NCBI RefSeq assembly: GCF_900115055.1
Contig: NZ_FOVD01000001.1
Coordinates: forward strand, 1 to 64,000
Origin: Chryseobacterium oleae
GTDB taxonomy: Bacteria > Bacteroidota > Bacteroidia > Flavobacteriales > Weeksellaceae
Direction: 5' to 3'
Length of the DNA stretch: 64,000 nt
In this document: positions 38,908 through 62,051 of the stretch, piece after piece
Layout: every line of letters starts with the position of its first letter
How positions within the stretch are numbered: the first letter of the stretch is position 1
Translations under genes and position numbers: made by a program
Notes under the pieces: generated by a model
What the model was told of the DNA's origin: nothing
The model's input: the letters and a program-made list of their open reading frames with translations, nothing else
Databases searched by the model: none

Positions 38908-38936
38908 TTGAAGTTTATAAATTATTCCTACCTTTG
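38908..38936 (+). promoter_or_regulatory. Promoter of the SRP RNA gene
   Basis: TTG (38908-38910), 18-nt spacer, TACCTTTG (38929-38936), with the RNA beginning 4-5 bases later. Both elements match the Bacteroidota consensus. Confidence 0.75.
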
Positions 38937-38940
38937 CAAC

Positions 38941-39043
38941 GGCAAGTCCTAAACAACCAGCTCCTGAGAACCCTCCAGGGTGGGAACACAGCAAAGGTAA
39001 TTGGTCGTAGCGGTGTGATTTAGGTAGCTTGCCATTTTTTTTT
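38941..39043 (+). ncRNA. ffs: Signal recognition particle RNA, small bacterial type (4.5S)
   Basis: A roughly 93-nt hairpin RNA: ends GGCAAG (38941-38946) and CTTGCC (39028-39033) pair, then CCTAAA with TTTAGG. The apex carries the conserved SRP domain IV elements, CCAGGGTGGGAACACAGCA, where GGAA is the tetraloop and the AGCA side is the Ffh-binding internal loop. A T-run (39035-39043) follows as terminator, and a full promoter precedes it. The RNA works with Ffh to target membrane proteins. The strand is set by promoter and T-run. An open frame on the opposite strand is ignored. Confidence 0.9.
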
Positions 39044-48534: not shown

Positions 48535-49089
48535 ATGATCAAGCAATTATTTCTATGCTTAAGTGGCATTCTGTTTCTGGCAAGCTGCAAAAACAATGAA
48601 ACCCGCCCGTCTGCATCTGCTGATACGGAAATTACCAAAAAAGTCAATCAGCTGTATACGGAATACGACGGTTCAAAAAAATCAATTTACAATCAATCTT
48701 TTTCTGACAGTCTGTTTTCTCCGGAACTGAAAAAGACGCTGGAAAACGCTATCCACGCATCGGAAGCTGATATTGAAAGAGTGAAAAAAAGTGATCACCC
48801 GGATGAAAAACCGTTATTGTTCGAGGGCGCTGTTTTCTCCAGTCTCTATGAAGGATATACCGGATATAAAATAAAGTCGGTTACAATAGATCCTTCCGGA
48901 ACCTCAGCAGATGCAGCTGTTGAACTTGAGTACACCCTTTCTCCACCGAAAATTAAGTGGACAGATCATGTACAACTGATTAATTCCGGGCAGGGATGGA
49001 AAATTGATAACATCCGTTTTGACACTATCGGTAATGCGAAAGATTTGAAAACAAGTCTGAAAGAATTCACTCAAAATGCCACTCAGTAA
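48535..49089 (+). CDS. Lipoprotein of DUF3828-like type
   Basis: A 184-residue lipoprotein, signal MIKQLFLCLSGILFLASC. The mature part has an N-terminal helical half (KKVNQLYTEYDGSKKSIYNQSFSDSLFSPELKKTLENAIHASEADIERVK) and a C-terminal strand-rich half (GYTGYKIKSVTIDPSG...KWTDHVQLINSGQGWKIDNIRFD), as in DUF3828 proteins related to the NTF2 fold. Function unknown. Its last 71 codons are duplicated 556 bases downstream as a start-less fragment. It opens the accessory islet before uvrA. Confidence 0.8.
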   Translation: MIKQLFLCLSGILFLASCKNNETRPSASADTEITKKVNQLYTEYDGSKKSIYNQSFSDSLFSPELKKTLENAIHASEADIERVKKSDHPDEKPLLFEGAVFSSLYEGYTGYKIKSVTIDPSGTSADAAVELEYTLSPPKIKWTDHVQLINSGQGWKIDNIRFDTIGNAKDLKTSLKEFTQNATQ

Positions 49090-49104
49090 AACCTCATCAT
49101 AAAA

Positions 49105-49127
49105 AAAGCTGCTCTCAGAGCAGCTTT
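49105..49127. terminator. Bidirectional terminator, copy 1
   Basis: Ten-bp perfect arms AAAGCTGCTC and GAGCAGCTTT with a TCA loop, between the convergent lipoprotein and peptide genes. The duplicate is at 49661-49683. Confidence 0.85.
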
Positions 49128-49134
49128 ACATTTT

Positions 49135-49269
49135 TTAAGGACATTGGGCGATTGGAACCTCGCTGCACACTACTTTATTCATCCATTCGCAGAATACGCA
49201 GTATTTCTTTGGTTCTCCGCCATACACAGATTTCAGATCGGTTTTCGTCAGTTTCTTTAAATTTTTCAT
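49135..49269 (-). CDS. GG-leader, cysteine-rich small peptide (bacteriocin-like), copy 1
   Basis: A 44-residue peptide. The first 18 residues, MKNLKKLTKTDLKSVYGG, are a double-glycine leader of the Bacteroidota type (basic N-terminus, LKKLxxxxLKxVxGG), removed by a peptidase-containing ABC transporter. The mature part would be 26 residues, with four cysteines at 24, 27, 35 and 43 in CVFC...VVC...QCP. A -7 box (TAAATTTG, 49299-49292) lies 22 bases upstream. No transporter or modifying enzyme is close. Its function as a bacteriocin or signal is inferred from the leader only. An identical copy is at 49691-49825. Confidence 0.85.
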   Translation of the reverse strand: MKNLKKLTKTDLKSVYGGEPKKYCVFCEWMNKVVCSEVPIAQCP

Positions 49270-49291
49270 ATCGTTTTAATTTTATGTTTGA

Positions 49292-49299
49292 CAAATTTA
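49292..49299 (-). promoter_or_regulatory. -7 box of the GG-leader peptide gene, copy 1
   Basis: Minus strand TAAATTTG matches TAnnTTTG. The nearest TTG lies only 15 bases upstream, closer than usual. Duplicate at 49848-49855. Confidence 0.5.
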
Positions 49300-49430
49300 T
49301 AACGAATTCCGTATCAAATTATTACAATTTAATCTTTAAAGCTTTCATTATTTATAGATTATCATAGAAAAAATAAATCTATTAACAGAGAAATACGGTT
49401 TAATATTTAATGCGTATCTTTCACTAAGCC

Positions 49431-49645
49431 AGTCGGTTACAATAGATCCTTCCGGAACCTCAGCAGATGCAGCTGTTGAACTTGAGTACACCCTTTCTCC
49501 ACCGAAAATTAAGTGGACAGATCATGTACAACTGATTAATTCCGGGCAGGGATGGAAAATTGATAACATCCGTTTTGACACTATCGGTAATGCGAAAGAT
49601 TTGAAAACAAGTCTGAAAGAATTCACTCAAAATGCCACTCAGTAA
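49431..49645 (+). pseudogene. Start-less 3' fragment of the DUF3828-like lipoprotein gene
   Basis: Duplicated last 71 codons and stop of the gene at 48535-49089. It lacks the start codon, signal peptide and N-terminal half, so it should not give a product. Confidence 0.93.
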
Positions 49646-49660
49646 AACCTCATCATAAAA

Positions 49661-49683
49661 AAAGCTGCTCTCAGAGCAGCTTT
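49661..49683. terminator. Bidirectional terminator, copy 2
   Basis: Identical to the terminator at 49105-49127, carried in the duplicated unit. Confidence 0.85.
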
Positions 49684-49690
49684 ACATTTT

Positions 49691-49825
49691 TTAAGGACAT
49701 TGGGCGATTGGAACCTCGCTGCACACTACTTTATTCATCCATTCGCAGAATACGCAGTATTTCTTTGGTTCTCCGCCATACACAGATTTCAGATCGGTTT
49801 TCGTCAGTTTCTTTAAATTTTTCAT
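49691..49825 (-). CDS. GG-leader, cysteine-rich small peptide (bacteriocin-like), copy 2
   Basis: Identical in sequence to copy 1, including upstream region and -7 box (49855-49848). Both copies should be expressed at the same strength unless chromosomal context differs; the duplication therefore doubles gene dosage of the peptide. Confidence 0.85.
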   Translation of the reverse strand: MKNLKKLTKTDLKSVYGGEPKKYCVFCEWMNKVVCSEVPIAQCP

Positions 49826-50014
49826 ATCGTTTTAATTTTATGTTTGACAAATTTATAACGAATTCCGTATCAAATTATTACAATTTAATCTTTAAAGCTT
49901 TCATTATTTATAGATTATCATAGAAAAAATAAATCTATTAACAGAGAAATACGGTTTAATATTTAATGCGTATCTTTCACTAAGCCAAAAACATACACCA
50001 AAACAATTAAAAAT

Positions 50015-50500
50015 ATGGAAATTATAACAGCAAAAGGAGCTCATGCAGGCCAACTGGACCCCATAAAAAAGACCCTGATCTCTAACGGTCTTCTTTCCGG
50101 GCAGGATGATATGGGTAGTTACAACAAGGGAATATGTCACGATGTGGTCGCTTATGCTTTATACATGAGAGGTGCCGCGATATCTCCATCTGAACTTGTA
50201 CAGTATCATGCTCAGGGATGGCTTAATAAGTTCGATTATTCCGGAGGAGAGAAATGGGATGGATATTCGGTTATTCCCAAGGGAAAGGCCATTGGTTTTT
50301 ACAGAGTAAGAGATAAGACCTGGTTTCACTCAGCGGTTACTACCGGAAGCGGTACGGAGATCAGATCTGTGAACGGGTTCTCGTTAGGAACAGCGTGGTC
50401 GGTACCTGTTGATATGAAATGGGTCCTTGGCAAACGAAATTCTGACGGAACTTTTAATTACGACGGAACCAAAATAGAGGTTTACATCTCTCCTTTGTAG
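50015..50500 (+). CDS. Putative papain-like (NlpC/P60- or CHAP-like) hydrolase, possible toxin
   Basis: A 161-residue protein without signal peptide. ICHDVVAYALYMRGA offers a nucleophile Cys41 at the start of a helix, GKAIGFYRVRDKTWFHSAVTTGSGTEIRSVNGF offers His105 and Asn120 in strands, and this Cys-His-Asn order is that of papain-fold amidases (CHAP, NlpC/P60). No family was matched exactly. It is followed 44 bases later by a DUF7079-like gene that may be its immunity partner. A secreted or injected peptidoglycan amidase is one possibility; a cytoplasmic housekeeping amidase is another. It is directly behind the duplicated segment. Confidence 0.6.
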   Translation: MEIITAKGAHAGQLDPIKKTLISNGLLSGQDDMGSYNKGICHDVVAYALYMRGAAISPSELVQYHAQGWLNKFDYSGGEKWDGYSVIPKGKAIGFYRVRDKTWFHSAVTTGSGTEIRSVNGFSLGTAWSVPVDMKWVLGKRNSDGTFNYDGTKIEVYISPL

Positions 50501-59701: not shown

Positions 59702-61585
59702 TTATATTTCGTCAAGATCGATGTCTTCATTGTTGATTTTTACTACATACTCGATTCCGTCAATTGCTTTTGAAATAATCTGGTTTCTCAGGATATTAGC
59801 CATATTTTCCCAGTAGGCTCTTCCGTAAAAAGAATAGTTCTGCGGAATAATTTCCACCTCAACGGTTCTTACAAAACCTTCCTTAGGGCGATTGCTGATC
59901 ATGGTTCCTCTTCTTACCCTCACTTCCTTCACCTCATCTTTAAGGATCATTCTGCAGTAGTTTTTAACGTCTTCCAGAGAAATGATTTTATCCCTTGTCG
60001 TTAACGCATATTTGTAAGCCTGAATACTGTCTGTTCCTTTTTGCTCTTCTGCACCTCCAATCGTCTCAGTAAGAAGTACCACCGTCTGTGATTTCAACTG
60101 ATTGGAAAGCTCAGTTCCCGGACGCATATGATTGGCCAGAGTACAATGTGTCACCCAGAAAGAAGCATACGTATGGTCTGTTTTTTCTACAGGCTCCATG
60201 ATGACGTAATTCAGTTCCTGTCTGATATTCCTTTTGGCGTTGTTCACCTTTTGCACCATCGTCTTCATTTTGTCCGACATTTCGCTGAGGACTCCTTTAA
60301 CATTATCCCTGTTTAAAAGTGAAAATGCAGCGATCTCATCTCTGGTAAGTTCCAGCACATTCGCGATCATGTCTACCGCATTTCTGTTGGTAAAACGCTC
60401 CATTCCTCCCTTTCTTACCGTGTACAGACCTTTTTTAAGATCATCCGCAGGGGTAAAAGGAATTTCGGTGTATTTTCTTCCATCGCCATCCTGAACCTCA
60501 TCTACATAAAGGAAATGCTCACCTTCGTCTGTAACCAGAGGAATATTGTTCCCCATAATGTCCAGACTGTATTCTGTTTTTTTCCAGCCTCTGTTGTAAA
60601 CCGGGAAAGCATTCATCACAAATGAGAAATTATCCAGGATCTCAGCAGAAAACTGCGGTGGGAATTCGAAAGTAAGCCACAAATAACGCTTGTCTCCAAT
60701 CTGTTTTTTGATTTCCTCTTTTCCATCCAGAAAATCCAGATTCTGTGGAAGTTTTCCAGGTTCTGAGAAAAGACTGCTTGAAAGTCCTGTGATTTCTATG
60801 AATTTATGTCGGTAAATACTTTTAATATCTTCAATGGCCTTGTTTCGGATAGACTGCTCTTTGAACATCTGCTCATATCCTTCAGGCTGATTATTGCTCA
60901 GATAGCTAAGCCCTTCCCTCACAAATAAGGGGTTTCCATTGCTCGTCACCGTAATATAAGGAAGAAGTTTGTACACAAAATCCATATGCTCAAAAGCCGG
61001 GTTTGAGCAAAATACGCTTACATATTTAGGAAAATTCTCGCTCGCATATCTGCTTACATCCACTCCGATGGTAATCTTTCTGTAATCTTCAGGTTTCCCC
61101 TGAAATCTGGCTACCGGAATTTTATTAAGCCTGTCGTCTACGCTATAGCAGGTATTTCCTACAAACATGACAGCTGTCTGTACTTTATTGATCCGTACAT
61201 TTCCTACAGGTGTAAAAGGAATATTCAGCTGTTTGTCTGATTCTGATTTCACCGTAGAGGTCATCTGTTTACGGAAAAAGAATTCCGTGTGTTCCAGTAA
61301 TACTTCCGAAGAATCATAAGGCAGCGTAAAAGCCACCGCATGAGCCGGAATCGGATGGGTATAAATGGATGGTGTCAGAAGTTTGGCCAGTTTCTCCAGG
61401 ATACGGGCGTTTACGGTCTGAATCTCGTTATTGGCTTTAAAGACTTCCGTACTGAATGCGTCTATCAGTAGTTTTACAAAAGGGTCCAGAGATTGCGGGC
61501 TTTTCAGTCCCCACACTTTGGTGGCGTTCTGAAGCATTCTTGCCTTTACAGATTCTTTGGAGTATATATTTTGATCTAAGTTCAT
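59702..61585 (-). CDS. tssF: Type VI secretion system baseplate subunit TssF
   Basis: A 627-residue protein of the TssF/VasA family in the Bacteroidota (subtype iii) form. The start resembles family members: RMLQNATKVWGLKSPQSLDPFVKLLIDAFSTEVFKANNEIQTVNARILEKLAKLLTPSIYTHPIPAHAVAFTLP, followed by barrel-like parts and the C-terminal IISLEDVKNYCRMILKDEVKEVRVRRGTMISN. TssF forms the wedge of the phage-like baseplate with TssE, TssG and TssK. It lies between tssE (25 bases upstream) and a DUF3829 lipoprotein gene. Confidence 0.85.
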   Translation of the reverse strand: MNLDQNIYSKESVKARMLQNATKVWGLKSPQSLDPFVKLLIDAFSTEVFKANNEIQTVNARILEKLAKLLTPSIYTHPIPAHAVAFTLPYDSSEVLLEHTEFFFRKQMTSTVKSESDKQLNIPFTPVGNVRINKVQTAVMFVGNTCYSVDDRLNKIPVARFQGKPEDYRKITIGVDVSRYASENFPKYVSVFCSNPAFEHMDFVYKLLPYITVTSNGNPLFVREGLSYLSNNQPEGYEQMFKEQSIRNKAIEDIKSIYRHKFIEITGLSSSLFSEPGKLPQNLDFLDGKEEIKKQIGDKRYLWLTFEFPPQFSAEILDNFSFVMNAFPVYNRGWKKTEYSLDIMGNNIPLVTDEGEHFLYVDEVQDGDGRKYTEIPFTPADDLKKGLYTVRKGGMERFTNRNAVDMIANVLELTRDEIAAFSLLNRDNVKGVLSEMSDKMKTMVQKVNNAKRNIRQELNYVIMEPVEKTDHTYASFWVTHCTLANHMRPGTELSNQLKSQTVVLLTETIGGAEEQKGTDSIQAYKYALTTRDKIISLEDVKNYCRMILKDEVKEVRVRRGTMISNRPKEGFVRTVEVEIIPQNYSFYGRAYWENMANILRNQIISKAIDGIEYVVKINNEDIDLDEI

Positions 61586-61610
61586 AAATTTTTCTTGCAG
61601 TTAAAAACAT

Positions 61611-62051
61611 TTAGTCAATAGACATCGGACTTAAAAATAATTCTGTAGAAAAGCTGAAACGCTCTCCCGTTGCCTCCATTTTTGCATTGATGGCAATTCT
61701 TACTTTCTTTTTGATTTCTGTGTGTTCTTTGGTATCGTAGCTGTGTTCTACAAATTGAATGTGGGCATCAACCTGCGCCTGTACGATCCGGGGTTCATAC
61801 TCCTGAATCTGCCTTCTCAGGCTTTTAATGAAAACGCTTTCCCATACGGCACTGGTAACCCCATTGTCGAATTCCAGGTTCCAGACGTCGTTTCCATAGT
61901 TGTCATCATATCTATTCTCGCCTTTTTTGGTGGTGATCAGCAGCATGATATTATGCGCAATGCTTTCGCCCATGTCGCAGATATCAATGCTTCCGCCTTC
62001 AGTCATGAGTGTTGAAGGTACAAAAGGCATTCTGTAATTTGGTGTATCCAT
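61611..62051 (-). CDS. tssE: Type VI secretion system baseplate subunit TssE (gp25-like)
   Basis: A 146-residue protein of the GPW/gp25 family: DMGESIAHNIMLLITTKKGENRYDDNYGNDVWNLEFDN matches the lysozyme-like gp25 core (I.x.I..ll.T..GErv..p.yG), and the second half IQEYEPRIVQAQVDAHIQ continues the family (YEPRL). In the T6SS baseplate TssE initiates sheath assembly. It is the first gene of the operon; an APC permease lies 165 bases upstream on the same strand, separated by a hairpin. Confidence 0.87.
   Translation of the reverse strand: MDTPNYRMPFVPSTLMTEGGSIDICDMGESIAHNIMLLITTKKGENRYDDNYGNDVWNLEFDNGVTSAVWESVFIKSLRRQIQEYEPRIVQAQVDAHIQFVEHSYDTKEHTEIKKKVRIAINAKMEATGERFSFSTELFLSPMSID

Follow-up and report, generated by a model that had tools for sequence, protein, structure and literature searches.

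At one locus of Chryseobacterium oleae, a minus-strand frame of 44 codons occurs twice within the window (the whole stretch of 64,000 nucleotides that was analysed), each time encoding a short peptide with a double-glycine leader and four cysteines. This raises the question of how such a peptide is handled by the cell, and what it is for; to our knowledge, only a handful of secreted peptides are known to act as signals in Bacteroidota. The features of the locus are as follows.

49135..49269, minus strand: peptide gene, copy 1 (leader residues 1-18 with GG at 17-18, core 19-44, Cys at 24, 27, 35 and 43)
49691..49825, minus strand: peptide gene, copy 2, identical to copy 1
48875..49987: exact tandem duplication of 557 nt with a period of 556 (copies 48875-49431 and 49431-49987)
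48535..49089, plus strand: convergent lipoprotein-like gene, with a weak DUF3828 match (23.3 bits vs 26)
49301..49326, minus strand: upstream element TGTAATAA-N14-CGTT of copy 1, ECF-sigma-like by resemblance
49857..49882, minus strand: upstream element TGTAATAA-N14-CGTT of copy 2
49292..49299 (copy 1) and 49848-49855 (copy 2), minus strand: -7-like box TAAATTTG
49105..49127 (copy 1) and 49661-49683 (copy 2): terminator-like hairpin between convergent genes

The peptide gene and its duplication

Both frames give the same translation of 44 amino acids and a stop, with the four cysteines where the first-pass annotation of this DNA had placed them, and the precursor consists of the leader MKNLKKLTKTDLKSVYGG followed by a core of 26 residues. 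A six-frame search of the window for the leader motif found no occurrence outside the two peptide copies. Over its 18 residues the leader matches the NCBIfam model NF047798 (leader_Chryseo, 'bacteriocin-like protein') with 30.8 bits (E 2.3e-7, cut-off 23.5), and the genome encodes three C39-peptidase ABC transporters, both of which agree with the double-glycine reading proposed at first pass.

The two genes are identical because the surrounding sequence repeats exactly, and the attribution of the two copies to a tandem duplication is therefore upheld. As a general property of the gene it does not stand: the nearest relatives (L015-L017) have a single copy. In these the next upstream gene lies 189-205 bp off, against 745 bp from copy 1 here, and from this spacing the duplication looks private to this genome or its assembly, being either a recent true duplication or an assembly artefact. 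The second repeat unit includes only the 3' part of the lipoprotein-like gene at 48535-49089.

Conservation and gene neighbourhood

Of 147 related genomes, 71 have an orthologue (E ≤ 1e-3), and every one of these belongs to the 88 of the same genus (71/88); a scan of named genomes returned at least 56 loci, all titled Chryseobacterium, weaker matches being other leader peptides. The 69 loci that were read come from 68 other genomes (G036 appears twice), the own genome being excluded; two of the 71 matching genomes were omitted, one with a match to residues 1-32 at a contig end (G012) and one with in-frame stops (G039). There are 60 distinct sequences among the orthologues. Every one of the 69 loci encodes 44 residues with the double glycine and the four cysteines, whose loss among orthologues had been named at first pass as grounds for abandoning the reading. 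Positions M1, N3, K5, L7, L12, G17, G18, P20, Y23, C24, C27, E28, C35, S36, C43 and P44 are invariant throughout. Over 2211 pairs, pN/pS is 0.14 for the leader and 0.20 for the core, synonymous sites being close to saturated; over 310 close pairs, which are not independent, dN/dS is 0.11 for the leader and 0.07 for the core. As judged from these alignments, the peptide is under purifying selection.

The surroundings of the gene are also kept. A neighbour of the gyrA side, scored as positive if any one of GyrA, GNAT, YetF or a DUF3828-like gene was seen, is present at 68 of the 69 loci, UvrA is present at 54, and both are found in 33 of the 38 loci longer than 8 kb; 29 of the 69 loci have only 1.5 kb of flank per side, so that distant neighbours are missed in them. 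The second copy in G036 (L081) has neither. The DUF3828-like gene at 48535-49089 is convergent with the peptide gene in 51/69 orthologous loci, making it a neighbour, and a dispensable one. No immunity or partner gene is universal among the neighbours tested at the 69 loci. From these comparisons, the peptide gene resembles a conserved part of the core genome of Chryseobacterium.

Several related observations may be recorded here. Among divergent relatives that share the leader, L158 is found some 2 kb away from an orthologue in Chryseobacterium sp. c4a and likewise ends in CP, and a subfamily (L159-L162) combines the same leader with another cysteine pattern. On the plus strand of the window, 50015-50500 encodes a protein of 161 aa resembling the model of the T6SS effector deamidase TecA (NF040972, 103.3 bits, cut-off 220); 13 of the 69 orthologous loci have a relative of this protein upstream of the peptide gene.

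Putative promoter and terminator

The peptide gene would be transcribed singly, from a conserved ECF-like promoter. Among 70 upstream regions (69 and that of the window), 30 match TGTAATAA-N14-CGTT at 12 of 12 positions and 26 at 11 of 12, with a gap of exactly 14 in 52 of these 56 strong matches, while 1.3% of 1380 shuffled upstreams reach 11 matches. TAnnTTT follows directly after CGTT, and in the alignment the upstream element is better conserved than this -7 box. The gene had been credited at first pass with a -7 box and a terminator of its own; both are present, but the exact TAnnTTTG is found at that position in only 23 of 69 orthologues, and the hairpin at 49105-49127 (about -14 kcal/mol), lying between convergent genes, could also serve the gene at 48535-49089.

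By motif alone, the region has the CGT box at -10 and the fixed distance from a -35 box that characterise promoters of the ECF type. According to a transcriptome study, the ECF-sigma motif SM6 of Flavobacterium psychrophilum has a CGT box in the -10 region, like the conserved CGTT here, and is induced under low nutrients; unlike SM6 as it is described there, the peptide promoter has the TAnnTTT box directly after, as in sigma-A promoters (PMC9723704). By analogy, we infer that an ECF-type sigma factor may control the gene.

Genome-wide, the exact pattern TGTAATN16CGTTNTA has four sites, against none for the backwards control, namely one for each peptide copy, a third in front of a fatty-acid desaturase gene and a fourth inside an open frame of 758 codons. 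With one mismatch allowed, a longer pattern shows no enrichment over the control genome-wide (7 sites vs 7), and therefore no further regulon members are claimed; within the window a one-mismatch pattern has 3 sites against a shuffle mean of 1.17, with 10 of 100 shuffles reaching 3. The upstream regions of sister peptides, inspected by eye and unscored, have no evident copy of the element. In the six desaturase (PF00487) loci scored out of eight, own included, the element lies between -135 and -143 and matches at 10 to 12 of its 12 positions, L173 and L177 being without the expected start; this gives no more than a hint of a regulon common to the peptide and the desaturase. In desaturase loci L112 (1507-1532, 1637-2725), L170-L172 and L174-L176, the element is followed by roughly 100 nt of well conserved 5' sequence that includes a CCGGtaatgtgCCGG stem, and a search of Rfam matched no family to this region.

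The candidate exporter and oxidase

One of the three C39 transporters belongs to a cassette on another contig (C14), a minus-strand row encoding a 502-aa VKOR and thioredoxin-domain protein, the C39 ABC transporter and an HlyD-like protein. The search for such a transporter and an HlyD-like protein recommended at first pass has thus located both in a single row, together with a VKOR-DsbA fusion. In its C-terminal part, the VKOR protein matches the DsbA-like ScsC. Each of the two gaps in the cassette holds a leader peptide, with 33.1 and 23.4 bits against the NF047798 cut-off of 23.5 when scanned without the first Met. The other two transporters, L108 (contig C8) and L109 (contig C7), stand one beside a radical SAM protein and one beside two split LanB-type dehydratase proteins, and are likely to mark other peptide-modification loci.

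The distribution of the leaders follows that of the VKOR protein. An orthologue of the latter (at least 47% identity) is found in 83 of the 88 genus genomes, and leaders (E ≤ 0.05) in the identical 83 (Fisher p 2.6e-8, phylogeny ignored); the VKOR orthologues of G038 and G063, stop-broken in those assemblies, were scored present by identity. G011, G057, G060 and G079 have neither, G053 has no leaders and only a 25% identical VKOR relative, and all five are also without the peptide studied here. In a genome of another family (G145), 6 kb are enough to hold a leader together with relatives of the VKOR protein (46%) and of the C39 transporter (66%). As would be expected of substrates of a C39 exporter, the leaders co-occur with the VKOR partner of one C39 ABC transporter, the exception for the transporter itself being G053, which keeps it at 92% identity with no leader match, and which counts against a link between cassette and leaders. 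So do G104 and G115, in which the VKOR relatives are distant (29-30% identity) and no leader was matched, and G029, with the VKOR protein and one weak NF047798 match, yet with an orthologue of one of the sister peptides used as controls below. Of the 83 genomes carrying the VKOR orthologue, 12 are without this peptide, and the peptide is therefore not essential.

The C39 exporter of the C14 cassette would recognise the GG leader, cut after Gly17-Gly18 and export the core, a proposal made because of what is known of the leader family and because of the co-occurrence. The VKOR-DsbA fusion beside it would then oxidise the core to two disulfides, as suggested by the even cysteine counts of related cores (see below) and by the gene order. 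We infer that this cassette, rather than either of the other two C39 exporters, handles the peptide, and export together with oxidation by it is judged to be quite probable.

The possibility that the VKOR-DsbA protein carries a C39-like domain at its N-terminus was considered and rejected, with PF03412 at E 0.3 only, a profile-profile probability of 0.1 (E 0.77, from few, similar sequences) and a structural model that is weakest over residues 1-40 (pLDDT block means 32-50) and middling overall (mean pLDDT 69). Second VKOR-like genes in G004, G022, G032 and G056 are stop-broken (TGA or TAA) and appear as traces of decayed peptide loci.

Sister leader peptides and predicted structure

The genome has at least 56 matches to NF047798 (57 of 101 candidates scored), and in rich genomes such counts are lower bounds, 57 candidates being scored at most. 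Cores of 34 sisters, lying in the stretches retrieved from the genome, were chosen by leader pattern (which also allows GA) and not by their cysteines, one signal-peptide-like match being omitted by name; 10 have four cysteines, 21 have six, two have eight and one has five, so that 33 of 34 counts are even. Cysteine makes up 13.0% of sister-core residues; for a set of eight large proteins encoded in the window the share is 0.7%. The excess of even counts (p 2e-9, assuming odd and even equally likely and independence, whereas paralogues are not independent) points to disulfides.

Conservation at the level seen here is not shared by the two sisters used as controls, which at E ≤ 1e-8 reach 15 and 2, respectively, of a set of 54 genus genomes (own included); in that set, 45 have this peptide. 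With two sisters as the whole of the control, equal conservation may well exist elsewhere among the 56.

The predicted structure of the peptide (from 60 sequences; mean pLDDT 69, pTM 0.33) has strands at 23-27 and 32-36, forming a predicted hairpin. From the limits of these strands, not from coordinates, Cys24 would face Cys35, leaving Cys27 with Cys43. The calculated monoisotopic mass of the core in this genome is 3029.40 Da when reduced and 3025.37 Da when carrying two disulfides. In a comparison of the fold with the PDB, the best match (E 2.8) was uninformative beyond the predicted hairpin.

Relation to known families

The kind of gene had been called unannotated, which proves incorrect, as NF047798 exists and relatives in Chryseobacterium are named 'bacteriocin-like protein' or 'bacteriocin'. 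The peptide has the same 18-residue leader as the NF047798 family, a model of the leader only, which gives no function; it differs from its kin in that its core is kept across the genus, while the two sister cores tested are patchy. Among other models, TIGR01847 (bacteriocin_sig) scores 15.7 bits at a cut-off of 15.7 (E 0.017), NF047792 (CCPGW putative bacteriocin) 15.5 bits against 80, over the leader only, and PF10439 (Bacteriocin_IIc) 11.9 bits against 27.1. Membership of the class II bacteriocins, towards which the leader type had pointed at first pass, is not borne out by the PF10439 score, by the absence of YGNGVxC and of a conserved partner gene, or by the gene's behaviour as a conserved core gene. 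The name 'bacteriocin-like' alone decides nothing about function. Among the matches listed in a search of titles and abstract openings of the open-access literature, the peptide family and the VKOR-C39 cassette of Chryseobacterium are undescribed.

The bacteroidetocins offer a close comparison: they have, as here, a GG leader, four cysteines, a C39 ABC transporter with a thiol oxidoreductase, and no immunity gene (PMC6671954). Their leaders of 15-16 aa and mature peptides of 42-48 aa, as given there, differ from the 18 + 26 aa found here (PMC6671954). They are also described as encoded by a single peptide gene beside export genes, adjoining an ABC transporter/peptidase, a TM protein and usually a thiol oxidoreductase, on horizontally acquired elements, and killing by them is proven (PMC6671954). 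In contrast, the gene studied here stands alone between gyrA-side genes and uvrA, with its candidate exporter on contig C14, and no export genes of the bacteroidetocin type were found among its neighbours in the window. Class IIa bacteriocins combine a GG leader with disulfide-type cysteines, as here, but their motif YGNGVxC (as given in PMC6671954) is absent from the peptide, and there is no immunity gene. The precursors of chryseoviridin-type graspetides (PMC8939145) are likewise found in Chryseobacterium, with precursor tandem duplications and with double-glycine peptidases common nearby; they adjoin an ATP-grasp ligase, whereas none is present among the neighbours named here.

Possible role of the peptide

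Once outside the cell, the mature core would most likely serve as a signal throughout the genus. This role is proposed because of the conservation, the lack of any conserved partner gene and the near-neutral charge (-2 to +2 across 46 distinct cores), and rests on these only: a peptide that is vertically kept, invariant in length, near neutral and without such a partner seems to fit a signal held in common better than a weapon of individual strains. Given export and oxidation by the cassette, the chance of a signalling role is put at slightly better than even, and the whole reading, with export, cleavage, two disulfides and an extracellular genus-wide signal, is held at somewhat short of even. 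If true, the conserved peptide, a candidate oxidase and exporter, and the promoter element are all named.

An antimicrobial peptide resembling class II bacteriocins, exported and oxidised in the same way and aimed at other Bacteroidota, would account for the NCBI names of the relatives and for a TIGR01847 score right at its cut-off. It would also have a precedent in the bacteroidetocins, four-cysteine GG peptides that kill Bacteroidetes, need a thiol oxidoreductase and do so without an immunity gene, and the missing partner gene is therefore weak evidence against killing (PMC6671954). The constant length, the core near-invariant across the genus and its dN/dS of 0.07 argue the other way, as does the core charge, which compares with +2 and +6 in the two bacteroidetocins described (PMC6671954). 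Moreover, Treponema denticola is reported to secrete proteins with bacteriocin-type signal domains that showed no killing (PMC11879956). An antimicrobial function is, on balance, rather doubtful, while still deserving serious consideration.

The remaining alternatives have less in their favour. C39 peptidases can accept several leaders, and since two further C39 exporters are present in this genome, the peptide might be handled by these and modified by the adjoining radical SAM enzyme or split LanB-type dehydratase; this is unlikely, as genomes with a single C39 match (e.g. G008 and G010) still have leaders, and the leaders track the VKOR protein, with 83 genomes having both against five. A slimmer chance is given to a peptide that stays in the cell, its CxxC motif and two further cysteines, all four invariant, binding metal or serving intracellular redox with an inherited and unused leader resemblance, because the GG and the leader are conserved as much as the core, and sister peptides with other cysteine patterns have the leader alone in common. 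Finally, the frame might not be a gene, or might be a real one whose second copy is an assembly artefact. The exactness of the second copy and its absence from the relatives compared would suit the latter; against the former, 69 of 69 frames are kept under purifying selection. This last explanation carries very little weight.

A more general picture, offered tentatively and thought to be less probable than not by a clear distance, is that each Chryseobacterium genome produces tens of GG-leader peptides through one VKOR-DsbA-coupled C39 exporter, with the near-invariant four-cysteine member under an ECF-type promoter serving as the signal shared by the genus, and the others diverging. If true, a large disulfide-rich repertoire served by one conserved exporter lies behind the label 'bacteriocin-like', and within it the conserved member stands apart from the patchy ones.

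Other features of the window

Elsewhere in the window, 59702-62051 (minus strand) holds genes of T6SS type, encoding TssF (PF05947, 66.6 bits) and a gp25-like baseplate protein (PF04965, 40.8 bits), and 38933-39038 (plus strand) encodes a Bacteroidales small SRP RNA (RF04183, 92.9 bits).
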